Virus record (IMG/VR): IMGVR_UViG_3300025669_002088
Coordinates: 1-64,000 of that record
Origin: a virus
Length of the DNA stretch: 64,000 nucleotides
Strand: one strand, 5' to 3'
The notes under the pieces were generated by a model. The model was not told where the DNA came from and did not search any database. It was given only the letters and a program-made list of their open reading frames with translations. Both the position numbers and the translations under genes were made by a program. This document shows positions 17,268 to 48,150 of this stretch, piece by piece (position 1 is the stretch's first letter; each line of letters opens with the position of its first letter).

Positions 17268-18440
17268 TTACGCCCCTGCCTTGAAGTTGTAGACCGGCTT
17301 CAACCGGGCCTTGATTTCGACCGTGTCCCCGATGCAGTCCTCAACGGTCTGCGAGTCCTTATATGCCATCGGAGCTTCATCCAAGGTTTTCCGGGTCACA
17401 CAGGAGGTCCAAACGTCCTTCATCGTGTCCCTGAATTCCTCCAGGGACAACTCCCGCTTGGCCCTTCCCCGAGCCATCTTCCGTCCGGCCCCGTGGGGTG
17501 CCGAGTTGTTCCAGTCCTCGTTACCTTTGCCTTCGCCCAAAATACACCCATCCCGCATATTCCAGGGTATGATGAGTTCTTCCCCTGCCTTGGCCGAGAT
17601 GGCACCCTTGCGGATGATGTCGTCGTTCCCGATGAAGTTGTGTACCGATGTGACCATTTCCAGGTCTGCCAGTTTCAACCCGAAAAAGCGTACCAGTTCT
17701 GTAGCCATCACCAAACGGTTCAGGGCTGCCAACTGTTGGGCCAGACGCATTTCACGAAGATAGGACCGAGCGTCATCTCCAGTCAGCCAAGCGAGACCAC
17801 CCCAGGAACCCAACTTGGTCTTGGCAACATTTTGATGCTTCTCAGCTACCCGTAGACCGAAATTCCGGGAACCGGAATGGATAATCAGCCAAACATCTGC
17901 ACCGTCCTTTTCCTGATCCAGTTCTAAGAAGTGGTTCCCTGACCCCAAAGAACCAAGAGAATGCCACACCTTACTCCCATCTCCTCGGGCACTCCAGTCC
18001 ACATCATTCACGGTGTCCTGAAAATCAGACCAGGAAGGGCCTCTCCCCAAGTAGTGTTTGAACAAGTATGGGAGGTCTTTGGACACCTCTGTTCGGTTCC
18101 GAAACCCCGAAGGGACATGGGTTCGCAAATGCTTATCGAAAGCTTCGAAATCAGTCTGATCTTTGGTTGTGCCCGTTAACCGAACAGCGTTTACGCCGCA
18201 CCCAATATCGACCCCAACAAGAGAGGGCACAACAGCCAAGTCCTCCTCATCCAGGGGGCAGGTGAATCCGATCACACAACCAAAGCCTGCGTGATGATCG
18301 GGCATGATCCTCACTTTGGCCCCCGCAAAAGCGGGGAGATCCAAGAGTGCGTAGATCTGCTGAGCCTCCAATTGATCTGGGTAGTCCCCGTAAACAACAG
18401 CCGTTGTCCGGCCTCCCTGAATGGTGTGTCCTATACTCAT
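17268..18440 (-). CDS. rtcB: RNA-splicing ligase RtcB
   Basis: RtcB joins RNA 2',3'-cyclic phosphate or 3'-phosphate ends to 5'-OH ends using GTP and Mn2+. The 390-aa protein has the family motifs in order: MPDHHAGFGCVIGF (metal His), VGVDIGCGV (Asp/Cys metal ligands), SLGSGNHFLEL, IHSGSRNFG and APHGAGRKMARGRA (the guanylated His). All visible metal and active-site residues are present. The ATG at 18438-18440 has GGAGGG upstream. A copy of the promoter motif lies 22 nt ahead. In phages it likely repairs tRNAs or other RNAs cut by host defences. Confidence 0.95.
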   Translation of the reverse strand: MSIGHTIQGGRTTAVVYGDYPDQLEAQQIYALLDLPAFAGAKVRIMPDHHAGFGCVIGFTCPLDEEDLAVVPSLVGVDIGCGVNAVRLTGTTKDQTDFEAFDKHLRTHVPSGFRNRTEVSKDLPYLFKHYLGRGPSWSDFQDTVNDVDWSARGDGSKVWHSLGSLGSGNHFLELDQEKDGADVWLIIHSGSRNFGLRVAEKHQNVAKTKLGSWGGLAWLTGDDARSYLREMRLAQQLAALNRLVMATELVRFFGLKLADLEMVTSVHNFIGNDDIIRKGAISAKAGEELIIPWNMRDGCILGEGKGNEDWNNSAPHGAGRKMARGRAKRELSLEEFRDTMKDVWTSCVTRKTLDEAPMAYKDSQTVEDCIGDTVEIKARLKPVYNFKAGA

Positions 18441-18461
18441 TAAACCCTCCGTCACAAGGGT

Positions 18462-18487: not shown

Positions 18488-19274
18488 CCACTTGGTGTTT
18501 TAAACGCCAAGCACGGGCAGTGACACTTTTTTCTGTTCTCCCAAGCCGTTGTGCCGCTACATAAGGGAGTTCGGCCCAAACAACGGCATCTTCTTCCGGG
18601 GTCCACCTTTTGTAGGGTGGCCTTTGTCGCATTTCAGGAGGTCTCTGCCAAAGTAGGACAGTGGCTGATGCCTTCTGTTTGCGCTCTAAGGCCAATGCTC
18701 CTGGATAATAAAAGGCTTGCACCAAGGACTGAGCATCCTCCTTCAAGTACATTATATTGAACATGTTGTCTCTTTTGTTAGGCTGTAATTTTCGGGGCTT
18801 ACCCGTGATGGCTTGACAAAAACTCATGAAGGCGGCAGCGATGTGGGGGCTTTTCGTGCCGAAACTGACAAAAGGAAAACCTTTTCCTGTGATGCCTACG
18901 GATCCATCTGCATCAAGCCACCCCCGAAAATAGTCAGAAGCAGAAAAGGGGGTCTCGGGGGTTTTTACAGAGGTAGACTTTTTACCCGCAGGAAGTCCTA
19001 ATCTCTGCAACTCCTTTCTGAAATGCCAATTGGACACCCTGAGGCTACAGGACTCATAACCCTGTTTGAAGTTTGTGTCCCGGCAACGTGTAGACACACT
19101 AGAGTAAAAAGGGATGAGCTTCTGAAAGGCACACAAAAGAGGCTTATCCGAAATCTGAAGTTCGATTGTTAATTTGCCCTTGTTACCTGGACCTTGCCAC
19201 AGGTGGCCGTCTGCCTGTGTAAAACCGAAAAAGTAGGCCCATTGGGGATCCCTGAGATCAATGTTGTAAGTCAT
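18462..19274 (-). CDS. LAGLIDADG-like homing endonuclease with C-terminal Myb/SANT-like helix-turn-helix
   Basis: 270 aa. Two LAGLIDADG-like helices are visible: YFFGFTQADGHL (about 14-25) and YFRGWLDADGSVG (about 115-127), each with the expected acidic residue. The C-terminus RWTPEEDAVVWAELPYVAAQ followed by RTEKSVTARAWRLK resembles a SANT/Myb DNA-binding repeat. The start follows AGGAGGTTGTCACC. It stands free between the lipoprotein gene and rtcB, so rtcB or its surroundings may be the homing site. Confidence 0.8.
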   Translation of the reverse strand: MTYNIDLRDPQWAYFFGFTQADGHLWQGPGNKGKLTIELQISDKPLLCAFQKLIPFYSSVSTRCRDTNFKQGYESCSLRVSNWHFRKELQRLGLPAGKKSTSVKTPETPFSASDYFRGWLDADGSVGITGKGFPFVSFGTKSPHIAAAFMSFCQAITGKPRKLQPNKRDNMFNIMYLKEDAQSLVQAFYYPGALALERKQKASATVLLWQRPPEMRQRPPYKRWTPEEDAVVWAELPYVAAQRLGRTEKSVTARAWRLKHQVGSSVVPLE

Positions 19275-25102: not shown

Positions 25103-25138
25103 GTCGTGTCCTTTAGAAATGGATGCGTGGATTGAAAT
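25103..25138 (+). repeat. Orphan CRISPR-repeat-like sequence at the end of the thyX operon
   Basis: 36 nt long like the array repeat and matching it at 29 of 36 positions, including the whole 3' half (GGATGCGTGGATTGAAA). The 5' stem half changes GCATCC to GTGTCC, which still pairs with GGATGC in RNA through two G-U wobbles. Structure therefore seems conserved. The orientation equals that of the array. What follows is the 3' end of the opposite-strand gene. Confidence 0.85.
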
Positions 25139-26276: not shown

Positions 26277-26427
26277 CCACTAGTCGCCTTGGTGCGACTT
26301 CCCCGTCGTCTGAACTCCTGGTAGCGGGTGACCCCCAGGTGTTCCTTGAGGTACCTCGCCGTGTCTTTCCTTGGGATTGTGAAACTGAGGGTTAACGACA
26401 AGTCTCCGTCGTCCTCAAAGAAGGGGT

Positions 26428-26777
26428 ACTTGACAGTACCCCTCAAACTTACTAAAGTCTAATTGTTCCTGCTTGAAACAGGAGGCTGTTATGGCAGGAA
26501 GGCTTATGCTGATTGGGTAGGAGGTTCTGGTGTGCCCAGATGTTCTGGGGGTGAACACATTGGTACTAACGATCACCCACGAGGCGTAAAACGAGTGCTG
26601 AGAGAGCGATTCCGTCTTCGACGGACCAGTTCCTTGGGATTCGGACGGAAGGAGCAACCGTCATCCGAGCCCTTACCGTTGGGCCGGAAGTTTACTACCG
26701 AGGTACTTGGGTCACCAAGATTCGGCACAGCTTCAAACTTGATGCCTGTTACATTCTAGCAGGTTTTAAGGAACGGT
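26428..26777 (+). mobile_element. 350-bp miniature IS605-type element (PATE-like) with omega-RNA region
   Basis: The left end has the hairpin GTACTTGACAGTACC and then CTGCTTGAAACAGG. It then jumps to the last part of tnpB (AGGCTTATGCTGATTGGG onwards) and continues to the right end TTTTAAGGAACGGT. It is thus an internal deletion of the 34223-35733 element that keeps both ends and the 3' omega-RNA-type region. The left flank is GGGGT and the right flank AGGGTTTG. It has no transposase and must move in trans. Confidence 0.85.
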
Positions 26778-26864
26778 AGGGTTTGTCCGTGAGGATTTCC
26801 ACCCGATCTACCCCGTCAGCGAAGTGCAACACCTGGATCCGGTCGATAGAAATGGTCTGACTCA

Positions 26865-30385: not shown

Positions 30386-31618
30386 ATGGCCAAAAACAAA
30401 CCACAAAGACACTCGTTAGTGGGGCAACGTTTTGGTAAACTCTTGGCCCTGGAGAGGATTCCCGAAGGGCAAACCAAATATCGCTGTCTATGTGACTGCG
30501 GGAAAGAAGTTACCGTTGCCAGAGGCAGCCTTCAGCAAGGCGTAACACGTAGTTGCGGCTGTCTTCGTTCCCCCGATCTCATAGGACAAAAATTCCATCG
30601 GTTAACAGTCCTGGCCCTAACCCGAAAAATGAAACAGGGTCGGAAGTTGCCCCACTACATCTGTCGATGCGACTGCGGAAACGAGCACATCGTAGACAGA
30701 ACCGACCTCACCAAAGGGCGAGTAAAAAGCTGTGGCTGCCTACGGGGGTCTCATTATGGTACTGCCCGACCCATATGCAAGGGAGATCATTTCGGACGGT
30801 TGACAGTAGTTGCACAGGCTGGGAAGGGGGAGCATCTTTGCAACTGCTCTTGCGGAGGAACAAAAATCGTCCCCTATGTCCGTTTGAGAGCAGGTTCCGT
30901 GCAAAGCTGTGGGTGCCTACGAGGTTCGCCCCTGCCTTGGGGACAGGCGGCGCAGAATGCTGTTTTTCTGAGGAATCGAAAAAACGCACAGCTAAGAGGG
31001 TTGTCCTTTACCTTGATCCGAAACGACACACTGCCTCTTTTCAAACAAAACTGCTACTACTGTGGTGCGCCCCCGACAATGATTTACAAACACCCCAGAG
31101 GAAACTGCATCTACAATGGATTGGATCGGGTGGACAACACCGAGGGTTACACACCCTCAAACGTGGTGCCCTGCTGCTGGAAGTGCAATAGAGCCAAGAG
31201 AGAGGCAACTAGAGAAGACTTTCTGAACTGGGTGATGTTACTACATGACCCAATACCACCCATCTCTGCCTCAGGTCTGGCCCGTGTAGTGGTCACCCCC
31301 AAAGACAAACAAATTTACCGGAAATATCAAGGAGACGCTACTCGACGAGGCATCTCCTTTAGTCTTGATCTCACTCCTTTTGCAGCCCTGATTCAGTCCA
31401 ACTGTGGGTACTGTGGAACACCCCCTGCATCTCGGTACAGAAAACATGTTTACACAGGGATAGACCGAGTCGACAATGTTTTGGGCTATGCCGCAGATAA
31501 CTGTGTGCCTGCCTGCATCAGGTGCAATCGGGCAAAGAACACCGATGAATTAGCTGACTTCCTGGCTTGGGCAAAACGGATCCAGACCTTTCAAACCACC
31601 GCAATTTCCACCAAATAG
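30386..31618 (+). CDS. Homing-type endonuclease: three Cys-rich repeats and two HNH domains
   Basis: The ATG at 30386 follows GGGGAGGC; 410 aa. Residues 1-165 hold three repeats of the type GQRFGKLLAL..CDCG....SCGCL (each with CxCG and SCGCL), found in phage HNH endonucleases. Two HNH domains follow: CYYCGAPP...NGLDRVDN...CCWKCN (about 225-275) and CGYCGTPP...IDRVDN...ACIRCNRAK (about 335-390). It is more AT-rich than the flanks and is a free-standing plus-strand gene among minus genes, as expected of a mobile endonuclease. Its 3' end overlaps that of the PARP gene. Confidence 0.8.
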   Translation: MAKNKPQRHSLVGQRFGKLLALERIPEGQTKYRCLCDCGKEVTVARGSLQQGVTRSCGCLRSPDLIGQKFHRLTVLALTRKMKQGRKLPHYICRCDCGNEHIVDRTDLTKGRVKSCGCLRGSHYGTARPICKGDHFGRLTVVAQAGKGEHLCNCSCGGTKIVPYVRLRAGSVQSCGCLRGSPLPWGQAAQNAVFLRNRKNAQLRGLSFTLIRNDTLPLFKQNCYYCGAPPTMIYKHPRGNCIYNGLDRVDNTEGYTPSNVVPCCWKCNRAKREATREDFLNWVMLLHDPIPPISASGLARVVVTPKDKQIYRKYQGDATRRGISFSLDLTPFAALIQSNCGYCGTPPASRYRKHVYTGIDRVDNVLGYAADNCVPACIRCNRAKNTDELADFLAWAKRIQTFQTTAISTK

Positions 31619-33132
31619 CGGAACACCTGAGCATCCTGGTTGAAGGTAACCAACTCGTCATGCACAAAGCCCCCCTGACTTTGTTTCCCGCAGGCAAAGA
31701 TGAAGTCCTTAGTCGGCCACCCTGCCGGGCGATGCCTGTCCCAGCAAGCCGAGCCCCGTATGTCCGCTAACCCGAGGGCAACTTCCTGAAGGTACATGAA
31801 AGCATTGCGAGAGGCGTTGCCTGACCCGTAGTAGGCTCCTCTAGCGCTGGTGTAGTTCATCGACTTAAGTGCCCCATTCGTACCATCCGTAGGCGAACCC
31901 CCGACGAGCTTGTGTCCTGTGGCGTTCCAAGCGGGGGCGTGGTAAATGCCTCGTCCGAAGGCTGCTCCCGCCTTGTGGACACCCCGAGGAAGATTCTCAG
32001 GCATCAGGAGTCCCTGCTTGCTGATACCCAACAAGTTTTCGGTGCGTGTGCCATGCCACGCCATGATCCGTCCTGTTGCCCCCGGCTTTTTGGCGGTTTG
32101 AGTGGCATAGGTACTAAAGCGGCTGTCTGTACCGTTGCGTGTGAACTTGAACACCCTGGCAACCCGCAACACCGAACGGCCTCCTCGCCACCAGTTTTGA
32201 TTCCGCTGTGACTGTGCCGTGTTGAAGATCTCCACGACTTTGCGGAAGTCCTGGGTGCTTGGTTCACAAATTTCAATGGAGCAGCCGAGGCCATCGTACC
32301 ATATCTGTTCTTTGCCCGCTGTGCTGGACGTGTGTGCTGCAGCTTGAAACACCTCCTTGGTCAGGTGGGCATCCCGAAGAAGCTGGAGGAATTTGCGCTG
32401 TTCCTGCAACCGAGCATAGCTGGAGAGCACCACTAGATGCAGGTTGTCCTGCCCCCGCTGATCACGTCTGATCTCTCTCGGAACATTGGACATGAAACGG
32501 TTGGTCAGGTCAATGACCCCATCTCGGGGCACACCCTTTACGAGGGGCAGCGTCTGTTCCCGGTTTCGGGAACTCTCCCGCCCGAACTCCTGTTCTAAGG
32601 TGGTCTCGATCTCATCGAGGATGGAGCCTCCGATGTCTAATTGCCTATCTGATAAATTACCGATGGGGTTGTCCGCCGTTGCCCCGGCCTGAGCGGAAAG
32701 ACCAGCCCGAACTACCCGACTCGTCTCGTTGTAGATGACGCTCAGAAGTTGCCCGACTTCGGGGTTAAGGGAAGAAGTTACGGGGGCGGGTGTTAAAGCG
32801 ACGGGCACAGCCGTCCCATTGGCAGCGGCTTTATTCATCTCCTCTTGATCAGAACGAGTTTCCAGCCGGGTGTACCCTTTACGTTCCTTCCCCTGCACCT
32901 TTTTGGAAAGCAGCGACTGTGCCTGCCCCAAGCTGATGCCCCGTTTGCTGCCCTTGTCAGATCCGGCTTTGCCAGTCGGACCCCATCGACACTCGAAGTT
33001 CGCCATCCCCCCTCCGAGATCCTCCACCCACCCCTTCCAGAATTTGTTACTGCCGAGGGTCACACAGCCGGTCTTAGCCCCCGTCAAATCTGTGAAATTC
33101 AGGGTCACACTCTCAACAATTGTCCCGGCCAT
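31591..33132 (-). CDS. Poly(ADP-ribose) polymerase: WGR, PARP regulatory and catalytic domains
   Basis: PARPs transfer ADP-ribose from NAD+ to proteins or nucleic acids when activated by DNA breaks. The 513-aa protein has an N-terminal WGR domain (FECRWGPTGKAGSDKG, about 48-63). The helical regulatory domain includes PIGNLSDRQLDIGGSILDEI. The ART domain has WHGTRTENLLGI, GAAFGRGIYHA and FVHDELVTFN, giving the H-Y-E triad of true polymerases. The ATG at 33130-33132 follows AGGAGGATTGACG, under the promoter at 33173-33198. The layout matches eukaryotic PARP2/3 and is rare in phages. Confidence 0.9.
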   Translation of the reverse strand: MAGTIVESVTLNFTDLTGAKTGCVTLGSNKFWKGWVEDLGGGMANFECRWGPTGKAGSDKGSKRGISLGQAQSLLSKKVQGKERKGYTRLETRSDQEEMNKAAANGTAVPVALTPAPVTSSLNPEVGQLLSVIYNETSRVVRAGLSAQAGATADNPIGNLSDRQLDIGGSILDEIETTLEQEFGRESSRNREQTLPLVKGVPRDGVIDLTNRFMSNVPREIRRDQRGQDNLHLVVLSSYARLQEQRKFLQLLRDAHLTKEVFQAAAHTSSTAGKEQIWYDGLGCSIEICEPSTQDFRKVVEIFNTAQSQRNQNWWRGGRSVLRVARVFKFTRNGTDSRFSTYATQTAKKPGATGRIMAWHGTRTENLLGISKQGLLMPENLPRGVHKAGAAFGRGIYHAPAWNATGHKLVGGSPTDGTNGALKSMNYTSARGAYYGSGNASRNAFMYLQEVALGLADIRGSACWDRHRPAGWPTKDFIFACGKQSQGGFVHDELVTFNQDAQVFRYLVEIAVV

Positions 33133-33172
33133 CGTCAATCCTCCTGGTGGGCGTCAGTGCCCCTCACCTTAA

Positions 33173-33698: not shown

Positions 33699-34222
33699 CA
33701 CCTAGTCCTTTTCGTTTTCCGGAAGAGCGTGAGCCGTGGCCCTACAAATGTCCCGCAGGATCCCTCGGAGCACTTTGGCTTTGTTGTCTGCTTGTAAGGC
33801 CCTGTTCAGGGCCTTTTCCTGTCGATCCTTTTCCTGTACCCTGTCTGCTGTGGCCTTTGCCCGAATTGCCCGCTTTTCCGCTGACCTTATAGCTTCCACC
33901 ACTATTGTTAGCGCCACATCGAGTGGTTCAGAGGGAAAGGGAACAGCGCACTGGACATGCTCATAGTCCCAACCCTCGTACTCGTAACTTCCACGAGTAG
34001 TGAGCAACTCCAGAGCAGCCTCAGCGTCCCCTTCTGACGCCTTCTGCGCCAGTTCAAAATGTTTCCTTCTGGTCTCCCAAATCTTGAGGGACTGCCTGTC
34101 ATTTTGCAGTGCTCTTAGGTAGGGGTTGTGCTGGGCGTCCACAGCGAATTCCAGAGAACGTGTTTGGAGGTCGGAACGGGTCTCCTCGGAAAGGCTCGAA
34201 GGCTCTGGCCCTGGGTCGGGGT

Positions 34223-35733
34223 CCTTGACAGTACCCAATTTAGTTGCTAAAATCTAACTATTCCTGCTTGAAACAAGAAGCAGAGGTCAGTAAATGAAGT
34301 GTCGCATCTTCCGACTTCACAAGGACACCAACCGATCTAAGATCGATAAGTTGGAAGCCCTGCACAAAGCATATGTCAAGTACGTCCGTATCTGCGTACA
34401 GACGATGCTCAACCAGCAAACCCTCAACCTCCCGAAAGCCGCCAAACAAACGTTCTTCCCACGGGCTACTGATCTTACGTCTCAAATCGAAAAGATCGCA
34501 CGAGACCATGCAATTCAAATCGTAAGTGCTTGGGCCAAAGCTACTTACGCTCGTAAATTAAAGCCGACTATCACCAATCTCAAGCATGACGGTACCCTCA
34601 CCGATCAGGACGCCAAAGCACTCTGTGTCATCGGGTTGAAGTCCATCAGCAAGCCATGGGAGTTCATCACCCAAGACCATCTCGATGCTTATCACACCCT
34701 GTTGGACACCTACGGAGGCAACAAGCCTATCGTAAGGGACAACCTACCCATGAGGTTGTCAGAAATGACGGCTCGATTGGAAGACACAACTAAAGCTCCT
34801 TTGGGGGGTTTTTGGCTGAGGGTGTCCTCGTTGGAAGCTCGGAAATCCGTCTGGTTGCCTCTTGTTGGGAATCCTTACATCCAGCAGGCTGATCAGGTTA
34901 ACAAGGGGATATCAGCCCGTAAAACCAAGAAGGGGTTCTGGCGCTTTGAGGCAGTTAGCAAGGCTGAGTGGACCATTCCTGAAGCACAGGAAGATTGGCC
35001 TAAGTTGGGTGTGGATGTGGGCTTGAACGTGCTTGCAGCTACTTCAGATGGCGTGACCTATGGTGAACACGTCAAACCTAAGTTCGACAAGCTCTACGCT
35101 CGTGTCAGAAATCTCCGAGCAAACCGCCAACGACAGGACCTGAAGGACAACAGCCCAAAGTTGGATCACCTTGAAAGCAAGCTGAGTGGGTTGATCAAGA
35201 CAGAAACGGGTCGTGTAGTAAACACCCTTATCGTCCGCCATCCTGAGACAGTGTTCGTGGTCGAGGATCTCGACCTTCGAGGTTGCCGAGGCCAAAAGCG
35301 GTTTGCTTACAGGGCGTTACAGACCAACTTGGAGAGAAAAGCCCCAACAGAGAAGGTGAACCCGGCTTATACGTCGCAGGAGTGCCCCTCCTGCGGTTAC
35401 ATTCATCGAGGCAACCGAAGTTCAATAAGGTTCCATTGCCGCTCGTGCGGTAGGAAGGCTCACGCTGATTGGGTGGGAAGTTCTGGTGTGCTCAGACGTT
35501 CTGAAGACGAACACATCAAAGCTGGCGATCATCCAAGAGGTGTAAAACGAGTGCTAAGAGAGCGATTCCGTGTTAAACGGACCAGTTCCTTGGGATTCGG
35601 GCGGAAGGAGCAACCGTCATTCGAGCCCTTACCGTTGGGCCAGAGGCTTACTACCGTTGGATCAGAGTCATTTGGCAGCGGCACAGCTTCAAACTTGATG
35701 CCTGTTACATTCCAGCAGGTTTTAAGGAACGGT
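34223..35733 (+). mobile_element. IS605-type element with tnpB and no tnpA (1511 bp)
   Basis: The left end starts CCTTGACAGTACCC, preceded by GGGGT. The right end is TTTTAAGGAACGGT, followed by ACCAGTG. Both ends match the two 350-bp elements in this window. There is no target duplication and the cut follows GGGT, as expected of single-strand IS200/IS605 transposition. The 3' part of tnpB plus the right end is conserved in the minis and probably encodes the omega-RNA. With no tnpA here, movement needs a transposase elsewhere. Confidence 0.88.
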
Positions 35734-35802
35734 ACCAGTGTCCATCAGCGAACCGCCTGTTCACCACCTGGATCATTGCAGCCTGAGCCATCTCGTCCGT
35801 AG
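34294..35802 (+). CDS. tnpB: TnpB RNA-guided endonuclease
   Basis: TnpB cuts DNA guided by an omega-RNA from its own 3' end, helping the element persist. RuvC residues are intact: LGVDVGLNVLAATSDG (first D), VFVVEDLDLRG (E), and a CPSC/CRSC zinc ribbon followed by RKAHADW (last D). The conserved core ends at about residue 410. The frame has no stop before the right end and runs 69 nt into the interrupted gene, giving 502 aa. That tail is probably a by-product of omega-RNA conservation. The start follows AGAGGTCAGTAA. Confidence 0.9.
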   Translation: MKCRIFRLHKDTNRSKIDKLEALHKAYVKYVRICVQTMLNQQTLNLPKAAKQTFFPRATDLTSQIEKIARDHAIQIVSAWAKATYARKLKPTITNLKHDGTLTDQDAKALCVIGLKSISKPWEFITQDHLDAYHTLLDTYGGNKPIVRDNLPMRLSEMTARLEDTTKAPLGGFWLRVSSLEARKSVWLPLVGNPYIQQADQVNKGISARKTKKGFWRFEAVSKAEWTIPEAQEDWPKLGVDVGLNVLAATSDGVTYGEHVKPKFDKLYARVRNLRANRQRQDLKDNSPKLDHLESKLSGLIKTETGRVVNTLIVRHPETVFVVEDLDLRGCRGQKRFAYRALQTNLERKAPTEKVNPAYTSQECPSCGYIHRGNRSSIRFHCRSCGRKAHADWVGSSGVLRRSEDEHIKAGDHPRGVKRVLRERFRVKRTSSLGFGRKEQPSFEPLPLGQRLTTVGSESFGSGTASNLMPVTFQQVLRNGTSVHQRTACSPPGSLQPEPSRP

Positions 35803-35892
35803 TGGCATCATAGTACAGGTCCCCGTGCTTTTCCCTGAAAACCAGTAGACGTCCGGTTACGGTCGATTTGTCGGTCATTGAGAACCTCCGTC

Positions 35893-36055
35893 GTGTGTAC
35901 CGACCAGCTTATTAAACTACCACTCAGTCGGTGGAATTGAACCACACCTTGGCTTTATCAGAGCCACGCTCGAACACGAGCTACGACCTTGTAGTAGGAC
36001 TGGCTACCTACATCTTCGGTTTATCAGACCGCTGTTCTAGCCGGTCGGTACACAC
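35893..36055 (-). ncRNA. tRNA-like structured leader with two tRNA-Ile-type anticodon arms
   Basis: A 16-nt outer stem (35893-35908 with 36040-36055, one mismatch) encloses the region. On the minus strand two hairpins carry the loop CUGAUAA (anticodon GAU): CGGU-loop-ACCG and UGGCU-loop-AGCCA. The second is followed by GUGG-UUCAAUU-CCAC, a T-arm, and preceded by GUAGCUC-GUGUUC-GAGC, a D-arm with a short loop. Overall it resembles tRNA-Ile but lacks a clean acceptor stem. It starts near the predicted transcription start of the promoter at 36059-36084 and is the leader of the interrupted gene. Confidence 0.5.
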
Positions 36056-36058: not shown

Positions 36059-36084
36059 CTACTCAGAGAGGTTCCGAGATGATC
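36059..36084 (-). promoter_or_regulatory. Element-specific promoter motif ahead of the tRNA-like leader
   Basis: Minus strand: GATCATC - 12 nt - TGAGTAG. The predicted transcript begins almost exactly at the outer stem of the tRNA-like structure. Confidence 0.75.
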
Positions 36085-36124
36085 CCTTTTGCTCGGTACG
36101 GTAGAGAAACACAGGAGGAAGACC

Positions 36125-36503: not shown

Positions 36504-36525
36504 CTGTGTGTATAGGGGGGGACAG

Positions 36526-38886
36526 ATGCCCAACTGGAACCGAATAGCCCACAGCGCCAGCAAAGTAACCGGCAAGGTCCAAACGATGGTGGAACATCTG
36601 TTGGGGGTTGAAGCGCTGACTCTCCGTTTCCTGGGCACCCACTTCCCACCCCAGCACGTCAGAGAGGTTTCTTTCGCCAGCCGGGGGCATGACATCGGCA
36701 AATACAGTCCCCTGTTCCCTGATGTACTGAACGGGGTAGCCCGAGGGGTGCTGGATCATTCCTCACCTGGAGCCTGGGTTGCTTACGACCGAGGATCCCT
36801 CCTCGCTTCCCTGTTGATCGCCGGACACCATAGGGGTCTGCCGGATTTCTCACGCGTCTATTTGGGGTGTGTCCTACGCCCCTCTGCACAGCCGATGGGT
36901 AGCGGGACTCATCCTAACCCCGGTGTCTTCCATGTCTATCCGGGGCCAGCGAAAGACTTGTTGGTTCCCCTACGTGAGGATGGCATCGAGCTTCCTGAAA
37001 TCAATATAAATGATGATGAGACCTTCTTTTCTTTTTCTGAACTGGTGAAAGGCTGGCAGTTGTCCATTGCCAAGGGCTTGGATGTCCGAATGGCCTTTTC
37101 TGCGCTCGTTGACGCCGACTTCCTGGACACCGCCGAGCACTTCAAACCAGGGCGCACCTGTCCCAACCCCCCGTTGGACGCCGGTCTCGCCCTTGACGTT
37201 TTGAACAAATACATCGACGGCCTCAGTGCCAAGAGCAAACGCAGCGATGGTGCTTCCCCTGTGGTGCAACAGGAACGGGACCGTCTACGACAGGACTGCC
37301 TCAGAGCCGCCCAGGGGCCTCCAGGACGCATTTTGACCTGTACAGCCCCCACCGGTGTAGGCAAAACTCTAGCGCTGGTCTCGTTCGCCCTGGCGCACTG
37401 TCAGGCCCACCAACTTAAACGGGTGATCATCGCTGTACCCTACAAAAGCATCATTCAACAGACGGCGAAAACCCTGAAGGAGCTTTTCAAGGACCGGGCC
37501 TTCGGTCCCCACTTTGTGTTGGAGCATCACACGGACGCCACGCAGTGGGTCGAAGAGGAGGATCTCCAACAGGATGGTAGATCAAATGAGATTGACCGAC
37601 GAGGGCTCACTGAAAACTGGGATGCACCAATCATCCTCACCACGAACGTTCAACTATTGGAGTCCTTGTTTTCCAATCGGCCAGGGAGATGCCGGAAACT
37701 CCACAACATCCAGGACTGCGTGATCATTTTTGATGAGGGCCAGTCTTTGCCCAGCCACCTTATGCTCCCCACAATAGCAATGCTCGACCGACTCAGCCGT
37801 CAGTATCAGGTCACGGTGGTGTCTGCCACGGCCACCCAGCCTGCCTTCCAGAGCATCCTGCCTCAGGTAGAAACACTCGTGGGGGAACCGCTCCAGCCCT
37901 ACGAGGAGATTGCCTCCGCCCCCGTAGCCTCGGCCAAGGCGATGGTCCGCAACAAGTTTCACTGGCCGCACAACGACGACGAGAGGTGGACCTGGGCGCA
38001 GTTGGCTGACCGGGTGTGTTCGGAAAGGATGTCAAACCTCGTGCTTCTCAACAGGAAGGACCATGCGGAAGCGGCCTGGAGGGAAATACAGACACGGTGG
38101 GGGGCGGATCGAGCTATCTATTTGACTTCCAACCTGTGTCCAGCCCACCGGAAGGGGCTACTCAAAGAGGTGGTTCGTCGGTTGAAGACCGTTGGGGACT
38201 ACTTCGTTCTGGCAGCTACTCCTTGTGTGAACTCAGGGACGGACTTCGACTTCAACAGGGGCTTCCCGGCCATGGGACCGTTGGATGGGACGGCACAAAC
38301 CGCTGGGCGGGTAAACCGGGAGGGCTTGCGGGTACTAGGGGACATCTTCGTTTTCCGCCCGGACGTTGAATACAAGGACATGTTCCCGCATGACGAGTGG
38401 TTCCAGGCTGCTGCCCGGATCACGGAGCGGTTCCTCCGGCGCTACGGACAACGTCTCGACCCGACGAACCCGGAAATCTTGACCCAGTACTATGAGGCCC
38501 TCTATCGGGAAGCAGGGCTAGATCACCCGGCCACCAAAAAGATCATCGAGGCGTACCAGGAGGGTTCCTTCGAGAAGGTCAGTCGACGCTACCGGGTCAT
38601 TCCCGACAAAGGGGTCCAGGTCGTCGTTCCCTACCTGGAAGGAGGGTGTGGGGAGCAGTACAGGAAACTCAACAAGGAGCGGCCCACCCGGAAAAGCTTC
38701 CGGATGTGGATGAACCGAGCGGCCCTGCTATCGGTCTCTGTTCTGTCACTGAAGAAGGATCACCCCCTCTGGCTCAGCCTTGACCCCGTCACGCTGAAAA
38801 GGAAGGACGGCTCCATCACCGAAACGGGCTGGTACATCTGCACTGACCCAAGAGCCTACCACCCGGAACTTGGGCTGGTGCAATGA
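36526..38886 (+). CDS. cas3: Cas3, CRISPR type I helicase-nuclease (HD plus DExH)
   Basis: Cas3 is recruited by Cascade and shreds target DNA. The 786-aa protein has an N-terminal HD domain: VEHLL, SRGHDIGKYSPLF, LDHSSPGA and IAGHHRGLPDF, all metal ligands visible. The SF2 helicase has Walker A APTGVGKTLAL (about 275), DEGQSLP (motif II), SATAT (motif III) and GRVNREG (motif VI). The ATG at 36526 follows AGGGGGGGACAG. Nothing looks inactivated. It heads cas3-cas5-cas8c-cas7. Confidence 0.95.
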   Translation: MPNWNRIAHSASKVTGKVQTMVEHLLGVEALTLRFLGTHFPPQHVREVSFASRGHDIGKYSPLFPDVLNGVARGVLDHSSPGAWVAYDRGSLLASLLIAGHHRGLPDFSRVYLGCVLRPSAQPMGSGTHPNPGVFHVYPGPAKDLLVPLREDGIELPEININDDETFFSFSELVKGWQLSIAKGLDVRMAFSALVDADFLDTAEHFKPGRTCPNPPLDAGLALDVLNKYIDGLSAKSKRSDGASPVVQQERDRLRQDCLRAAQGPPGRILTCTAPTGVGKTLALVSFALAHCQAHQLKRVIIAVPYKSIIQQTAKTLKELFKDRAFGPHFVLEHHTDATQWVEEEDLQQDGRSNEIDRRGLTENWDAPIILTTNVQLLESLFSNRPGRCRKLHNIQDCVIIFDEGQSLPSHLMLPTIAMLDRLSRQYQVTVVSATATQPAFQSILPQVETLVGEPLQPYEEIASAPVASAKAMVRNKFHWPHNDDERWTWAQLADRVCSERMSNLVLLNRKDHAEAAWREIQTRWGADRAIYLTSNLCPAHRKGLLKEVVRRLKTVGDYFVLAATPCVNSGTDFDFNRGFPAMGPLDGTAQTAGRVNREGLRVLGDIFVFRPDVEYKDMFPHDEWFQAAARITERFLRRYGQRLDPTNPEILTQYYEALYREAGLDHPATKKIIEAYQEGSFEKVSRRYRVIPDKGVQVVVPYLEGGCGEQYRKLNKERPTRKSFRMWMNRAALLSVSVLSLKKDHPLWLSLDPVTLKRKDGSITETGWYICTDPRAYHPELGLVQ

Positions 38887-38980
38887 AAAAGTCTGCGGAC
38901 AGGGGTTCCTTTTGCGACTTCATTGAGTAGTAAGAAGTGCCGCCGAAGAAACTCGGCTGGATAAACAGACGGAGGGACAG

Positions 38981-39652
38981 ATGAAAAAAGGTATGCTGCA
39001 CGGGTTGGAAGTGTGGGGGGACAATGCCTGCTTCTCCCGCCCAGAGGTGACGGAGCGGACCACCTACCCCATCCCAACCCACTCAGCCTGTCGGGGGATC
39101 TTCGACGCTATCTACTGGAAAAGGTCCGCCAACTTCTACTGGCAGATCGTCGGGGTAGAGGTTGTGAACCCGATCCGGTACATGGGGATCATGCGGAACG
39201 AGATGAAAGACAAGGTCACCCGCCGCACTCTTCAGGTTGATCTTACAACCCAGAAGCACCGGACCCAAAAGCACACCAGGACTCTCCTGGACCCCCGGTA
39301 CCGCATCTTCGCACGGGCGGTCTGCCGGAATCCTGATGGGAACACCAACGCCATCGACGCCCAATTCCGTCGTCGGGCGGAGAGGGGCCAATGTTTCCAC
39401 CAGCCCTTCTTAGGTTGCAAGGAGTTTATGGCCAACTTCCAGCTTGTCCCGGTGGATGAGCATGATCCATCACAGGGACTCGCAGACCTTCAGGTGGACG
39501 TGGGGGTGATGGTCTACGACACCTTCAATCTGCTGGTGCCCGATGGAGATCCTTCGGTCAGCGTGTTCCACGCACAGATCAAGGATGGGGCCGTGGCCTA
39601 CCCGGAGTTCACTGATAGTGCCGCCGTGTTCCGGCCAGGGGGTGCAGCATGA
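38981..39652 (+). CDS. cas5: Cas5d (type I-C), pre-crRNA processing endonuclease
   Basis: In type I-C, Cas5 replaces Cas6 and cuts the repeat hairpin to leave the 5' handle. The 223-aa protein starts MKKGMLHGLEVWGDNACFSR and has PIPTHSACRGIFDAIYWK, a Cas5d hallmark. The TQKHRTQKHT segment and the Tyr in DAIYWK match the Tyr/Lys/His set used for cleavage in Cas5d. Start preceded by GGAGGGACAG. It overlaps cas8c by ATGA. Confidence 0.95.
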   Translation: MKKGMLHGLEVWGDNACFSRPEVTERTTYPIPTHSACRGIFDAIYWKRSANFYWQIVGVEVVNPIRYMGIMRNEMKDKVTRRTLQVDLTTQKHRTQKHTRTLLDPRYRIFARAVCRNPDGNTNAIDAQFRRRAERGQCFHQPFLGCKEFMANFQLVPVDEHDPSQGLADLQVDVGVMVYDTFNLLVPDGDPSVSVFHAQIKDGAVAYPEFTDSAAVFRPGGAA

Positions 39653-41481
39653 GTGGTATCGGACAGAGCCTCCTCAACTATGCCGCACACTATATGCCCC
39701 AGCAGGCTCCGGTGGGGTACGAGTACCTGACCGTCGTGGAAACCGTAGTGTGCCTGACCCCGGACGGGAAGTACCAGGACTGTCACCTCAGGGACACCAA
39801 GACGGCCTCCCCGATCCTGACACCTCGGGTGCCCTCCAATTTGCTCAGGGCCACGCCCCCCAAGACTCACTTCTTCATCGGGTATGTCCCCCAGGTGTTC
39901 CCTCTCCTCGTGGCCGAACCGCACGACAACACCAAGAACGAGGTGAAGAGGGGCCTCTTCCTGGAGCAGATCAGAACGGTCATCAAGGAGGTTCCCTGCA
40001 CTCGGAAGTACCTGACCCCCATCCAGACCTTCCTGGAGGACGACGAGCAGGTCGCCCTTGTGGTTCAGGCTCTGACGAAGATGGAGGCAGACCTCAAGCG
40101 GGCTGTGATCTTCCAGACCGAGGGGAAGAAACTCGGCATCCCGTTCCAGGACAAGAAGGAATGGCGGGAGTGGTGGGCGACCTACCTTTCAGGAGCGGAC
40201 AAAAAGAAGAAGACCAGCGATAAGACGTTCCGCTGCGTCGTCACCGGGGACGAGATCACGAACCCCTGCCGCATCCATCCTGACGGCATTGCCTTCGGCA
40301 CAACGAAGACGAAGCTGGTTGCCGCCAAGCAGACCTCCAGTCACCACTATGGCCAGGAGTCTGGCCTCGTTGCTCCGATGTCAGACCAGACGGCGAGCAC
40401 AATGACCCAGGCTCTGGTTCATGCCGCCCAAAACGCCGGGACGGCCTTTGGGGATCTTCGAATCCTTGTGTGGGCTTGTTCCAGGGGAGAAACCCTTACG
40501 GGGAAGGCTGGACTGCTGGCGGGCCAAGGGCCGGTTCTTGAAGGGGGCGAGTGGACCCAGATCCTGTCCGACGTTATGTCCGACCTCTTGAACTCGGGAT
40601 TGACGGATGGGGAACTCCGGGGTGCCACCCGGAAGGTGAAGGAATACCTGGACACGGGCACCGGACCGGGAGGTGTCCTAGACATGGACTGCACCTTGGG
40701 CATCGTTTCTAGCAACGGTCCCCGGTTGGCTGTCCGGCACTGGGAGACTGGACCCCTGTCCGTCCTGTTCAAGAACATCTATCGATGGTATCAGGATATG
40801 ACCATCAGCAACAACCGCAATGACACGGGGATCGCCCGCCTTTCTGCACTCTGGCAGATCCTTTCCGCTGTCAACGGCCCAAGGGGCAAAGCTTCCGAAC
40901 TGGAGCGTGAGATGCTCGTTCAGGTAGCCCTGCGGGGCCAGTCGGTCCCAATGAGCATTGTCAAAAAGGCCCTGGTGCAGTTCCGGTCACAGTTGCACCT
41001 GTCCATCAAACCGTCAACCAACATGGGGATCGCTCCGGCATTGCCGGGAATCCTCAAAACCTTCATCAACAGGAGAGGGAACACCATGTGTGAAGCAGGA
41101 TTGAACAAGGACCACCCGAGTGTGGCGTACCAGTGTGGGCGGTTGTTGTCCGTCCTGTCCGAACTCCAGAGCCTCGCCATCGGTGGGAGGAACCCCCCGA
41201 TGGCCCTGGCTGCTCAGTTCTCGTCCGCAACGATGCAGAACCCGGCCCGTGCGCTGGCCCGGTTACTGCTCCGTTCCGAGAAGCACGTCAACAAGCTCGT
41301 CCGACAGGGAAAGGGATGGGCGGATCACAAACGGCAGGAGATCGTCGACCGCCTGCCCACAGACCTTCCGACCCGCCTCGGCATCGAGGATCAAGCTTTG
41401 TTTGCCATGGGGTTGCTCCACCAGCGCTCGTCCTGGAAGAAGCAGGACAAGCCCGCAGGGACACCCCCGATTAAGGCATAG
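39649..41481 (+). CDS. cas8c: Cas8c (Csd1), large subunit of type I-C Cascade
   Basis: 610 aa, normal for Csd1. The N-terminus has MSGIGQSLLNYAAHYMP and YEYLTVVETVVCLTPDG. The family-typical FRCVVTGDEITNPCRIHPDG (about 198-217) and the ARALARLLLRSEKHV region near the C-terminus are present. It recognises the PAM and holds the complex. In I-C an internal start can yield Cas11c; an in-frame ATG near 41087 (MCEAGLNKDHPSVAY), preceded by GGAGAGGGAACACC, is a good candidate. Confidence 0.95.
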   Translation: MSGIGQSLLNYAAHYMPQQAPVGYEYLTVVETVVCLTPDGKYQDCHLRDTKTASPILTPRVPSNLLRATPPKTHFFIGYVPQVFPLLVAEPHDNTKNEVKRGLFLEQIRTVIKEVPCTRKYLTPIQTFLEDDEQVALVVQALTKMEADLKRAVIFQTEGKKLGIPFQDKKEWREWWATYLSGADKKKKTSDKTFRCVVTGDEITNPCRIHPDGIAFGTTKTKLVAAKQTSSHHYGQESGLVAPMSDQTASTMTQALVHAAQNAGTAFGDLRILVWACSRGETLTGKAGLLAGQGPVLEGGEWTQILSDVMSDLLNSGLTDGELRGATRKVKEYLDTGTGPGGVLDMDCTLGIVSSNGPRLAVRHWETGPLSVLFKNIYRWYQDMTISNNRNDTGIARLSALWQILSAVNGPRGKASELEREMLVQVALRGQSVPMSIVKKALVQFRSQLHLSIKPSTNMGIAPALPGILKTFINRRGNTMCEAGLNKDHPSVAYQCGRLLSVLSELQSLAIGGRNPPMALAAQFSSATMQNPARALARLLLRSEKHVNKLVRQGKGWADHKRQEIVDRLPTDLPTRLGIEDQALFAMGLLHQRSSWKKQDKPAGTPPIKA

Positions 41482-41541
41482 TCTCTAATGGCCTAAGGTG
41501 GGCCTTAGAGTTGGATTAGGCATAAAGTGAGGAGAAGTATC

Positions 41542-42552
41542 ATGAAGGATCTTTTGATGTGGCTGAAGAGTGGGACGGCGGCAATCGGATACAGGTTCGA
41601 GATCTTGTTCCTGTTCGATTGTCTGATGGGGAATCCCAACGGTGACCCCGACTTCGGCAACCTGCCCCGGACCATCCCGGACACGGGACACGGGTTCGTC
41701 ACCGACGTCGCCATCAAGCGGCGTCTCCGCAACTACGTGAGTCTCCGCAAGGCAGGCAAGACCCCGTACCAGATTTTGCTGATGATGAACACCTGTACCA
41801 ACAGGCTCATCGCCAAGGCCCACGAGGACTCCCACGGGACCGTCCCGGCGAAGGCTACCAAGCAGGAGGAGCGGGCGGCGGGTGACCGGATGTGCCAGGA
41901 CTATTGGGATGTCCGCACCTTCGGCGGTGTTCTCAACACAGGTGCCAAGGCGGGCCAGATTCGTGGACCCGTCCAGGTGGTGAGTGCCCGGTCCCTCGAT
42001 CCGGTATCCATCCAGGAGATCACCATCACCCGCATGACCGACACCAAGGGCTCCCCTGATCCCAAGAAGGTCAAGACCCCCAAGGATCAGGGTTTCTCCT
42101 CCGCCCAGTGGCAGGAGTATGAGGACGGGGCCGAGGCGGCGGCTCTCCGCACGATGGGAACCAAGGCGATCATCCCCTACGGTCTCTTCGCTGCCAACAT
42201 CACGGTGAGCGCTTTCGTGGCGGAACAGACGGGCTTCTCGGCGGAGGATCTGGCCCTGATGATCGAGGGTCTGGAAAACATGTACGACCATGATCGGACC
42301 TCCAGCAAGGGTTTGATGACCTGTCGGGGCATCTACATCTTCAAGCACGTCGGGACGGCGGACGACCCCGAAGAGCGGGCACAGCAGGCCAAGCTCGGGT
42401 GCGCCCCGGCCCATAAGCTGCTGGACAACGGACGCATCGTGACTGTGGTCAAAAAGGACGGGGTAGAGGCCCCGATGTCCTTCGACGACTACACTGTCAC
42501 CGTGGACGAGTCCAAGCTCCCGGAAGGTGTCGAGTTCCGGGCCATCCAGTAA
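41542..42552 (+). CDS. cas7: Cas7c (Csd2), crRNA-backbone subunit of type I-C Cascade
   Basis: The ATG at 41542 follows GAGGAGAAGTATC; 336 aa. It has YRFEILFLFDCLMGNPNGDP, then NTGAKAGQIRGPVQVVSARS (RAMP-type G-rich region) and MYDHDRTSSKGLM (about 250), all typical of Csd2. Six copies wrap the crRNA. The next element downstream is the array leader; cas4, cas1 and cas2, which normally follow in I-C, are absent. Confidence 0.95.
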   Translation: MKDLLMWLKSGTAAIGYRFEILFLFDCLMGNPNGDPDFGNLPRTIPDTGHGFVTDVAIKRRLRNYVSLRKAGKTPYQILLMMNTCTNRLIAKAHEDSHGTVPAKATKQEERAAGDRMCQDYWDVRTFGGVLNTGAKAGQIRGPVQVVSARSLDPVSIQEITITRMTDTKGSPDPKKVKTPKDQGFSSAQWQEYEDGAEAAALRTMGTKAIIPYGLFAANITVSAFVAEQTGFSAEDLALMIEGLENMYDHDRTSSKGLMTCRGIYIFKHVGTADDPEERAQQAKLGCAPAHKLLDNGRIVTVVKKDGVEAPMSFDDYTVTVDESKLPEGVEFRAIQ

Positions 42553-42748: not shown

Positions 42749-43933
42749 GTCGCATCCTCTAACAAAGGATGCGTGGATTGAAACAGAGGTTCCGCCGGAG
42801 ACCTATAACGTCAGGCTGGTCGTCGCATCCTCTAACAAAGGATGCGTGGATTGAAACGTTACTGCCCGCATGACACCCCGGATGAGATCACCAGTCGCAT
42901 CCTCTAACAAAGGATGCGTGGATTGAAACACTGTGGACCTGGCGGGGAAGAAGCCGACCTATGGTGGTGTCGCATCCTCTAACAAAGGATGCGTGGATTG
43001 AAACTTTCAAACAGCGACCCAGTCGAGTGCGACTTGGTGGGTGTCGCATCCTCTAACAAAGGATGCGTGGATTGAAACAAGTGCCTCGCCGTCAAGGATC
43101 CAGAGGGGAAGCTGAAGTCGCATCCTCTAACAAAGGATGCGTGGATTGAAACAGGCCCACAGAACGGCTCCCACGGCCTGGGGACGCCGTGTCGCATCCT
43201 CTAACAAAGGATGCGTGGATTGAAACGCTCAGAGGACTGCTCGACGGGACAAGACGGTCTTCCTCGTCGCATCCTCTAACAAAGGATGCGTGGATTGAAA
43301 CTCGAAGTTGGGCGAAATCCAGGAATGACGGTCACAAGTCGCATCCTCTAACAAAGGATGCGTGGATTGAAACAATCCGATGACACTTCCCTTTCCTGTC
43401 CGCCCTTGGAGCGTCGCATCCTCTAACAAAGGGTGCGTGGATTGAAACGAGATCCCCCTTGCGACTCCCGCCCTGAAGGCGCTGGCGAAGTCGCATCCTC
43501 TAACAAAGGGTGCGTGGATTGAAACGTAAGCGAACTCCACCCCTGGTCCGTGGGTGACCGGTCGCATCCTCTAACAAAGGGTGCGTGGATTGAAACGCAG
43601 TGAGCCAGCGCCCCACGAGCCATGCCTGCCTTACTGTCGCATCCTCTGAAAAAAGGATGCGTGGATTGAAACTAAATCCGATTTACGGGGAACTGGCTGG
43701 TCGGCTCACGTCGCATCCTCTAACAAGGGGTGCGTGGATTGAAACGCTGATTCGGACTGATCCCTGAGAAGGCGCAACCCTGCCGTCGTACCATCTAACA
43801 AGGGGATGCGTGGATTGAAACGAAACCGCAGCGAGGCAGAAGGGGTCACTCCCTCACGGGTGTGTGGATTGAAACATTAGGGTAGTAAGTGTAGACAACC
43901 TCGTCGTTCCCATGAGGGGGCGTGGATTGAAAC
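42749..43933 (+). CRISPR. Type I-C CRISPR array, 17 repeats and 16 spacers
   Basis: The repeat is 36 nt, beginning GTCGCATCCTCTAACAAAGG and ending ATGCGTGGATTGAAAC, with a GCATCC/GGATGC hairpin and the I-C-type 3' tag ATTGAAAC. Repeats start at 42749, 42822, 42894, 42969, 43043, 43117, 43191, 43266, 43338, 43413, 43490, 43561, 43636, 43710, 43785, about 43843 and 43903. Spacers 1-14 are 35-41 nt; the last two are shorter (21-27 nt). Repeats 1-9 are identical. From repeat 10 variants appear (GGGTGC), and the last five are degenerate, marking the leader-distal old end. No spacer matched this window by eye. Confidence 0.98.
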
Positions 43934-44945: not shown

Positions 44946-44967
44946 GTCGTATCCTTTGACAAAGGGT
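44946..44967 (+). repeat. Half of a degenerate CRISPR repeat cut by the miniature IS
   Basis: GTCGTATCCTTTGACAAAGG matches the 5' part of the array repeat (18 of 22 positions over 44946-44967). It stops at GGGT, exactly where the 350-bp element begins. The expected other half (GCGTGGATTGAAAC) is not on the far side of the element. Confidence 0.75.
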
Positions 44968-45317
44968 ACTTGACAGTGCCCTTCATACCTGCTAAAGTCT
45001 AACTGTTCCTGCTTGAAACAGGGAGCTGTTGCGGCAGGAAAGCTCATGCTGATTGGGTAGGAGGTTCTGGTGTGCCCAGATGTTCTGGGGACGAACGCAT
45101 CAAAACTAACGATCATCCGAGAGGCATAAAACGAGTGCTAAGAGAGCGATTCCGTGTTAAACGGACCAGTTCCTTGGGATTCGGACGGAAGGAGCAACCG
45201 TCATTCGAGCCCTTACCGTTGGGCCGGAAGTTTACTACCGAGGTACTTGGGACACCAAGATTCGGCACAGCTTCAAACTTGATGCCTGTTACATTTTAGC
45301 AGGTTTTAAGGAACGGT
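44968..45317 (+). mobile_element. 350-bp miniature IS605-type element (PATE-like), second copy
   Basis: Same length, ends and internal deletion junction as the element at 26428-26777, with scattered base changes. The left flank is a CRISPR half repeat ending GGGT. The right flank, GCGACATC, is the methyltransferase leader. At the window start the same GCGACATC is preceded directly by GGGGT, as expected of an empty site. The two flanks therefore do not belong together, suggesting recombination through element copies. Confidence 0.85.
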
Positions 45318-48118: not shown

Positions 48119-48150
48119 GTTTCAATCCATGCACCCTCAGCGAGTGCAAC
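48119..48150 (-). repeat. CRISPR-repeat-like hairpin at the 5' end of an mRNA
   Basis: The minus strand reads GTTGCACTCGCTGAGGGTGC then ATGGATTGAAAC. The 3' half matches the array repeat, including the full ATTGAAAC tag. The 5' half forms its own 6-bp stem (GCACUC with GGGUGC, one G-U). The predicted transcription start from the promoter at 48162-48187 falls about 2 nt before it. Confidence 0.8.

Follow-up and report, generated by a model that had tools for sequence, protein, structure and literature searches.

A tRNA-Ile-like RNA closed by a 17-pair stem in the leader of a phage gene: a possible tRNA mimic

Introduction

Mimicry of tRNA in viral messages is known best from RNA viruses. A virus record of 125,741 bases (IMGVR_UViG_3300025669_002088) raises the question of what a tRNA-like RNA might be doing in the message leader of a DNA phage. 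The first 64,000 nucleotides of that record, referred to here as the window, contain a 163-nt element on the minus strand that resembles tRNA-Ile(GAU), is closed by a long stem, and is situated between a promoter and a protein gene. It was of interest to determine whether this RNA is best regarded as a mimic, a working tRNA, a relic of tRNA genes or something else. No published account of the element, or of the motif in related phages described below, was found in searches of an open-access library.

The DNA polymerase of the record is 47% identical, with 96% of the query aligned, to that of the 485-kb metagenomic phage LR745208.1, and the record is therefore taken to represent a large phage or a piece of one. 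The element is flanked by a minus-strand gene (start at 35878) and a plus-strand gene (36125), and its nearest neighbours are a PARP gene and type I-C cas genes:

17268-18455: RtcB, 17.4 kb from the tRNA-like element, with a promoter of the same family upstream, at 18489
31591-33138: PARP with a WGR domain
36508-42552: type I-C cas genes
56704-57312: macrodomain protein

A second PARP-like ORF was noted by eye only at positions 97121-98080 of the record; with it, two PARPs and a macrodomain protein are found in one phage. The first-pass annotation of this DNA had drawn attention to RNA-repair genes nearby. RtcB is indeed encoded in the record, behind a promoter of the same family as that of the element, but at 17.4 kb it is near only in a loose sense.

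Promoter and leader context

The placement of the element directly behind a repeated promoter, also proposed in that annotation, was borne out:

36059..36086, minus strand: phage promoter copy GGGATCATC-N13-GAGTAG, one of 24 motif copies
35876..35892, minus strand: GGAGG resembling a Shine-Dalgarno site, with the ATG that starts the downstream gene; read from the sequence, 180 nt past the promoter box

In the 125.7-kb record 24 copies of the motif NGGATCATC-N9-14-GAGTAG were counted, versus 0.05 per genome in 20 mononucleotide shuffles, and they are spread over the whole record (e.g. 22387, 33528, 54436 and 122191). The pattern gave no matches in bacterial genomes. Directly behind the box of 8 of the 24 promoters is a hairpin made up of a G-run, CAAATGA and a C-run (e.g. 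GAGGGGCAAATGACCCC), which is also present in related phages. The element starts 3 bases past the GAGTAG box; the transcription start is placed by the position of the box, and actual initiation may be a few bases into the outer stem.

It is apparent that this leader differs from the others of its family. It is 180 nt long, versus 12-52 nt for the other 23 copies, the length being counted up to the first start codon with a purine-rich site, so that some of the 23 comparison starts (e.g. that for 48189) may be wrong. Among 89 distinct promoter-downstream sequences drawn from 115 loci, the element included, an unbroken stem of at least 16 pairs near the start is found in the element alone (17 pairs); the next longest have 15, 13 and 11 pairs.

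A second leader of the same phage contains a CRISPR-repeat-like hairpin. This is a lone type I-C-like repeat, GTTGCACTCGCTGAGGGTGCATGGATTGAAAC, at 48119-48150 of the window (minus strand), between the same-family promoter at 48189 and a gene start; the CRISPR array at about 42750-43933 has the repeat GTCGCATCCTCTAACAAAGGATGCGTGGATTGAAAC, and a further solitary repeat is situated at about 25103-25137 (plus strand). The RNA anti-CRISPRs described in PMC10651486 offer a comparison for the lone repeat in a leader.

Predicted structure of the 163-nt RNA

Folded alone, the RNA from 35893-36055 (minus strand) has a minimum free energy (MFE) of -68.7 kcal/mol. The mean for 200 dinucleotide shuffles was -46.3 kcal/mol (sd 4.05), giving a z-score of -5.54, and none of the 200 was as low; the folding check suggested by the first-pass annotation thus came out in its favour. 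The features of the RNA, all on the minus strand, are as follows:

36039..36055: outer stem, 5' arm, GUGUGUACCGACCGGCU (inverted repeat and fold)
36017..36031: first anticodon-like hairpin, CGGU-CUGAUAA-ACCG (from the sequence; pair probability about 0.2)
35994..36011: possible remnant T-arm of the first unit, GUAGG-UAGCCAGU-CCUAC (weak; pair probability 0.02-0.03)
35921..35992: tRNA-Ile(GAU)-like unit (ARAGORN; RF00005 at 35927-35987, 36.8 bits)
35987..35992: ACAAGG directly 5' of the tRNA core, the first bases of the ARAGORN unit
35968..35981: D-arm GCUC-GUGUUC-GAGC, with a short 6-nt loop without GG (pair probability 0.98-1.0)
35950..35966: second anticodon arm, UGGCU-CUGAUAA-AGCCA (pair probability 0.78-0.97)
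35931..35945: T-arm GUGG-UUCAAUU-CCAC (pair probability about 0.55; RF00005 alignment)
35893..35909: outer stem, 3' arm, AGCUGGUCGGUACACAC (inverted repeat and fold)

From 5' to 3', the order is outer stem, first anticodon region, GUAGG/CCUAC hairpin, UACUAC, tRNA-like unit, outer stem, GGAGG and AUG. The outer stem, first put at 16 bp, proved to have 17 pairs (16 Watson-Crick and one G-U; arms of 17 nt, 94% complementary). It is unique in the 30-42 kb stretch when inverted repeats of at least 16 nt, with at most one mismatch and a spacing of 60-250 nt, are considered, and a 17-pair stem would, we infer, not survive in neutral sequence.

Both of the CUGAUAA arms that had been described are present in the sequence, their loops lying at 36021-36027 and 35955-35961, 66 nt apart, within a repeat of 19 nt (84%). 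They fare differently in the fold: the second is well predicted, but the first, at about 0.2, is weak and is absent from the MFE structure. The T-arm with UUCAAUU was found as described, at 35931-35945. The GUAGG/CCUAC hairpin is in competition with a helix adjoining the tRNA, and UACUAC pairs with GUGGUA ahead of the tRNA-like unit. The free energy lies 8.2 kcal/mol above the MFE when both first-unit hairpins are formed, and 15.8 kcal/mol above it for a nested double cloverleaf; a true double tRNA fold is therefore not favoured.

The sequence CTGATAA occurs six times in the 125,741-base record, both strands considered, and only two of these occurrences are in a stem of at least four pairs, both of them in the element. 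When the first 66 nt were put through 200,000 mononucleotide shuffles, a CUGAUAA hairpin arose in 11 of them. The first-half CUGAUAA hairpin, with its 4-pair stem, can hardly have arisen by chance.

tRNA-like character of the two halves

Derivation from tRNA, another of the initial proposals, is well supported for the second half and weakly for the first. ARAGORN called a tRNA-Ile(gat) at 35921-35992 (minus strand), its only tRNA in the record, and Rfam RF00005 matched 35927-35987 (minus strand) with 36.8 bits, above the cut-off of 29; among Rfam families searched in the window, tRNA alone reached its cut-off. The first half scored 11.6 bits (E 4) against the tRNA model, which makes it weakly tRNA-like, and a search over 701 bases, allowing E up to 5, returned no match to it. 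In that 11.6-bit match the GUAGG/CCUAC hairpin is aligned, weakly, as a T-arm.

A functional tRNA is expected to have U33 in its anticodon loop, seven acceptor pairs, and a GG in the D-loop, required for the elbow contact with the T-loop. Both CUGAUAA loops contain U33, G34 A35 U36, A37 and A38, i.e. the loop of tRNA-Ile(GAU). The acceptor stem of the second unit has five of seven pairs, the D-loop (GUGUUC) lacks the GG, and CCA is not encoded.

The determinants of bacterial isoleucine tRNA named in PMC9976931 include positions 34-38, U12-A23, A73, C4-G69 and C29-G41. When this list was held against the sequence, U12-A23 was present in the second unit; A73, C4-G69 and C29-G41 were missing, with G at 73, G4-C69 and G29-C41 in their place (in the numbering of this analysis), and G29-C41 was found in both units. 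With its anticodon loop removed, the second unit had no isoleucine tRNA among its eight best matches to 96 phage tRNAs, so that the label 'Ile' rests on the anticodon loop. The damaged acceptor and D-loop indicate that the RNA is probably no longer able to be a charged tRNA, and a standard tRNA is ruled out by the acceptor, the D-loop, A73, C4-G69 and C29-G41, all of which fail.

Such damage is also what a pair of decayed phage tRNA-Ile genes, stranded without function in a leader, would display, the outer stem being a by-product of insertion. The acceptor, the D-loop and the first unit are all degenerate, as this explanation would have it, and it is nearly as likely as the mimic discussed below, though doubtful. 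A 17-pair stem and a z-score of -5.5 are unexpected for a relic; moreover, the T-loop and both anticodon loops are intact, and a 163-nt block has been retained between promoter and ribosome site.

Searches for other copies

A single other copy of the element was found, in IMGVR_UViG_3300022890_001078, which is identical to the record across 10,156 bases around the element. Two identical copies do not discriminate between the decayed tRNA pair and the mimic, the alternatives put forward in the first-pass annotation. The identity of the two copies, and hence the lack of any sign of selection, is compatible with decay.

Searches of viral contigs with peptides (the gene start, ORF 33702-34238 and the plus-strand neighbour) returned the identical partner only, each time, as did those with an exact 20-mer and a D-arm 18-mer. 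No match to the element was obtained by blastn against phage records. A covariance model of the 163 nt (R1), run on 27 records, matched this record and the identical partner, with nothing meaningful in the other 25; a match in LR745208 (E 0.78, 13 bits) was taken for nothing. Six more distant relatives found through the polymerase (47-60% identity) gave no real match to the element, and no homologous locus was found in the relatives. Weak blastn matches of 14-22 nt in the relatives were set aside; the 21-nt match, in G002, falls in apparent coding sequence. An 18-mer was found in 34 stretches of bacterial genomes, whose flanks represent an unrelated dispersed repeat and scattered single matches. 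That repeat, with the core GTAGTAGCTCGTGTTCGAGCG, is present in three Lentisphaerae genomes (most of L132-L165) and is unrelated to the element.

The 17-nt arms could also be the terminal inverted repeats of a small mobile (MITE-like) element by which a piece of tRNA was brought into the leader. Without the element the leader would be of the usual length, and a possible 3-bp GAC repeat is present on both sides. This origin is very improbable: the inverted repeats are single-copy in the record and, among the 19 promoter-sharing records, are found only in the identical partner, and a 3-bp repeat can be due to chance.

Stem-enclosed tRNAs in related phages

A scan for the promoter identified 45 stretches in 19 contigs, the partner included; contigs that match only once, such as G017, may do so by chance. 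RF00005 was above its cut-off in 7 of the 19 records: in the partner, and in six others that have 7 to 47 matches each (E up to 1). Among the above-cut-off matches listed for the relatives, the best scored 76 bits and four scored less than the element's 36.8 (30.7-32.7). In one relative, a promoter of this family stands immediately ahead of a tRNA gene (promoter at L107 1772, tRNA-Lys at L107 1816). Complete tRNA-Ile(GAU) genes are present in relatives G018 and G010, in arrays elsewhere; these intact genes, like the 7 to 47 tRNA matches in six of the 19 records, speak for a decayed pair.

Several oddities were encountered among the tRNA genes of relatives. They comprise a tRNA-Pyl call with a CUA anticodon in a distant relative (G003, L014 1501-1590), tmRNA genes and a group I intron (L110 10526-10896, minus strand; L115 294-669; L111 3170-3410, minus strand), and two tRNA-like genes read by eye (L106 about 18964-19037; L111 about 3912-3988, minus strand). 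In both of the latter, a UCU anticodon hairpin soon follows the acceptor strand and a D-like sequence (CGTAATTGGA and CGTAATTAGGA, respectively) stands behind it, as if the arms had been reordered.

Over about 1 Mb of loci, with some redundancy among them, ACAAGG stands at most 6 bases ahead of TAGCTC at six separate sites, namely in the window element, three times in G018 and twice in G010. The five cases outside the window are tRNAs enclosed by paired flanks (three from a motif scan, two read by eye), with the layout P2, loop AUCNA, P1, UACAA, tRNA, AAACAC, P1', loop ACCUC, P2', in which the loops vary. Turned inside out, the motif also forms an insert that follows the anticodon arm of three tRNA-like genes, two of them in G018 and one in G009, and it stands at a fourth site, in G010, without a clear tRNA context; G008 also has the G018 pair. 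The sites are:

G018: L107 2268-2332, 4045-4109 and about 4130-4790
G009: L112 12481-12549
G010: L111 1703-1765 (minus strand), with enclosed tRNAs near L111 1371-1650 (minus strand)

The loops of the two-helix motif are NCCUC/AUCNA and AAACAC/AUACAA, and its permuted layouts are reminiscent of small self-cleaving ribozymes. When all nine were aligned in rotated form, 98.3% of cells were paired and 11 of 13 pairs had changed on both sides; none of 500 shuffles reached any of five measures. This alignment was made by hand around the structure and is therefore biased towards it; slid versions pair at 25-56%. The motif scan recovered the three enclosed cases of G018 and reported inserted cases four times, from three places (two in L107, one in L077); it missed the two enclosed cases of G010 and the G009 insert, and listed about 20 further places that were taken for chance. 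In Rfam searches of 5 of 10 of the relatives' loci, the cut-off was reached by tRNA, tmRNA (plain and permuted) and group I intron only. Septu is described in PMC13096335 as a nuclease that cuts the variable loop of tRNA-Tyr, and the variable-loop insert in the relatives' tRNAs might evade a nuclease of that sort.

The stem-enclosed tRNAs of G018 and G010 share with the window unit the ACAAGG flank, an acceptor of fewer than seven pairs and an outer stem. Those that could be scored have 5, 4, 3 and 6 of 7 acceptor pairs, and the window unit has 5; the sixth ACAAGG case, Gly-ACC, was missed by the T-loop rule of the acceptor count. Seven pairs are found in 37 of 38 comparison tRNAs that have a TAGCTC D-arm but lack the ACAAGG flank, and six in the other. 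The anticodon arms of the enclosed bodies are Ile in the window, Val, Cys and Met in G018, and Leu-AAG and Gly-ACC in G010.

The window element differs from this class in lacking the conserved loops AUCNA, ACCUC and AAACAC in P2-loop-P1 helices. The motif scan, which also missed two G010 members, had no match at the element. A model of the inserted arrangement only (R2) scored 2 bits on its minus strand and found nothing at E up to 1 over the whole record. On the plus strand of the element R2 scored 11.3 bits (E 0.005, 351 bases), but one whole helix is missing, and the match was not accepted as a member. The best general local alignment of the 5' flank with the enclosed tRNAs, with a score of 16, was also attained by 746 of 5000 shuffles and is not significant; 2 of 83 controls scored higher (18 and 21). 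ACAAGG was singled out after the fact.

An unusual but working pre-tRNA, from whose enclosing flanks processing would free a tRNA-Ile reading AUC and AUU, would account for the above-cut-off RF00005 match and for the enclosing stems of the G018 and G010 tRNAs, and AUC is the main isoleucine codon of the phage (681 of 1067, in ORFs of at least 250 aa). It is nevertheless improbable, given five of seven acceptor pairs, no encoded CCA, no A73, no C29-G41 and a D-loop without GG. Its 36.8 bits are low beside the best of 76 listed in the relatives, although four there are lower, at 30.7-32.7.

The downstream gene

That the RNA leads into a gene, as the first-pass annotation had it, holds for the leader position and for the GGAGG and ATG; the frame of that gene enters a TnpB element after about 48 codons:

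35737..35878, minus strand: 5' part of the downstream gene, about 47-48 codons up to the TnpB element (frame reading)
34218..35736, plus strand: TnpB insertion element, ends approximate (TnpB domain)

The frame ends at a stop at codon 58, and the gene is probably interrupted, a point in favour of a decayed tRNA pair. The TnpB element is 86.8% identical to 68884-70402 (1520 columns), and shortened derivatives of such elements, with both ends retained, are present at 26423-26778 and 44964-45317 of the window. No Pfam or PHROGs family was found in 35721-35878, and the gene start, as stated above, was met in viral contigs only in the identical partner.

ORF 33702-34238 was considered as the rest of the interrupted gene and rejected. 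With the likely ends of the TnpB element, a joined frame of about 219 codons results in just one of three junction registers, the other two being open for 47-87 codons, and it carries no weight because any long frame would do likewise. A joined frame of 233 codons came from junctions inside the TnpB element.

Interpretation

Although it falls somewhat short of probable, the reading preferred here is that the leader derives from a tRNA and offers anticodon arms to a protein that binds tRNA. Computation establishes the predicted structure, the homology of the second unit to tRNA, the doubled anticodon hairpin and the promoter and leader setting; the transcription start, the stability of the RNA, its binding to a protein and any effect are inferences. 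A tRNA-Ile(GAU)-like gene of the phage would have undergone partial duplication and come to lie behind a phage promoter, ahead of a protein gene, and the 17-pair stem would close off the tRNA-like RNA and might stabilize it. The RNA would then present one sound and one weaker CUGAUAA anticodon arm, together with a T-arm, to a putative partner that reads anticodon or elbow features of tRNA. A protein-binding leader is suggested because the features read at the anticodon and T-arm have been kept, much of what is needed for charging has been lost, and the stem is closed. In trans, the RNA could act as a decoy for a host protein that cuts or binds tRNA; in cis, it could be an operator adjoining the ribosome site of its own gene. 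The trans role is slightly favoured, because in the two copies known, which are identical, the gene has probably been interrupted.

Several lines of evidence argue for such a mimic: the z-score of -5.5 of a fold with a closed 17-pair stem; the tRNA calls, and the full CUGAUAA in both hairpins, the only two of the record; the retention of positions 34-38 and U12-A23 while A73, C4-G69 and C29-G41 are gone; the 180-nt leader, versus 12-52 nt in the other 23; and the same promoter family directly ahead of a relative's tRNA gene. The relatives' stem-enclosed tRNAs, with their ACAAGG flank and damaged acceptors, are consistent with it, as are the precedents of the thrS operator and YrlA (see below) and the CRISPR-repeat-like hairpin in another leader. 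Against it stand the lack of an independent homologue in 27 records, the weak first anticodon arm and a first half that barely scores as tRNA, a flank similarity that is not significant with ACAAGG chosen post hoc, and the loop-less unit without an isoleucine tRNA among its eight best matches, with G29-C41 in both units.

A wider and unlikely, though not negligible, proposal is that this phage group makes stem-enclosed, uncharged tRNA bodies as decoys or sensors against host defences that cut tRNA, and that one of these has here become a message leader, so that decoy and protein would be made together. If the mimic reading is true, a stem-closed, tRNA-derived leader in a DNA phage would represent a compact coupling of tRNA sensing or decoying to gene expression. 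With the strongly covarying motif around and inside the relatives' tRNAs, the purpose of phage tRNA arrays becomes directly testable.

Comparison with known systems

The YrlA RNAs are described as having a stem formed by pairing of the 5' and 3' ends and a tRNA-like domain, in a length of 90-150 nt (PMC8394870), and it has been suggested that the tRNA-like domain might inhibit an anticodon nuclease competitively (PMC7790460). The element resembles YrlA, as presented in these sources for the rsr-yrlBA-rtcBA operon, in its end-pairing stem, its tRNA-like domain and the rtcB in the same genome. It differs in having an anticodon arm, in belonging to an mRNA leader, in matching no Rfam family except tRNA, and in that no Ro60/Rsr gene was found in its record. 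That it is itself a YrlA-type Y RNA of the phage, one that tethers an Ro60/Rsr-like protein and works with RtcB, is quite unlikely. The stem, the tRNA-like domain and the encoded RtcB fit, and 163 nt is only slightly above the range given for YrlA; a TROVE domain, however, is absent from 16 records, this one (which may be a fragment) and 15 others, only tRNA reached its Rfam cut-off in the window, and rtcB is 17.4 kb away.

The E. coli thrS translational operator is described in PMC9976931 as having two anticodon-stem mimics in the 5' UTR that bind the synthetase. Two candidate anticodon-arm mimics are likewise present in the sequence of the 5' UTR studied here, the first of them weakly predicted (pair probability about 0.2). 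Unlike thrS, the element is nearly a whole tRNA inside a 17-pair stem, and its downstream gene, with no Pfam family, was not seen to be a synthetase.

Phage tRNAs are reported to replace or shield tRNAs cut by host defences (PMC11555353, PMC10264068). As they are described in these papers, the defence-countering tRNAs are, like the element, phage-encoded and situated behind a phage promoter; they work as tRNAs, whereas the element is part of a leader and its acceptor is damaged.
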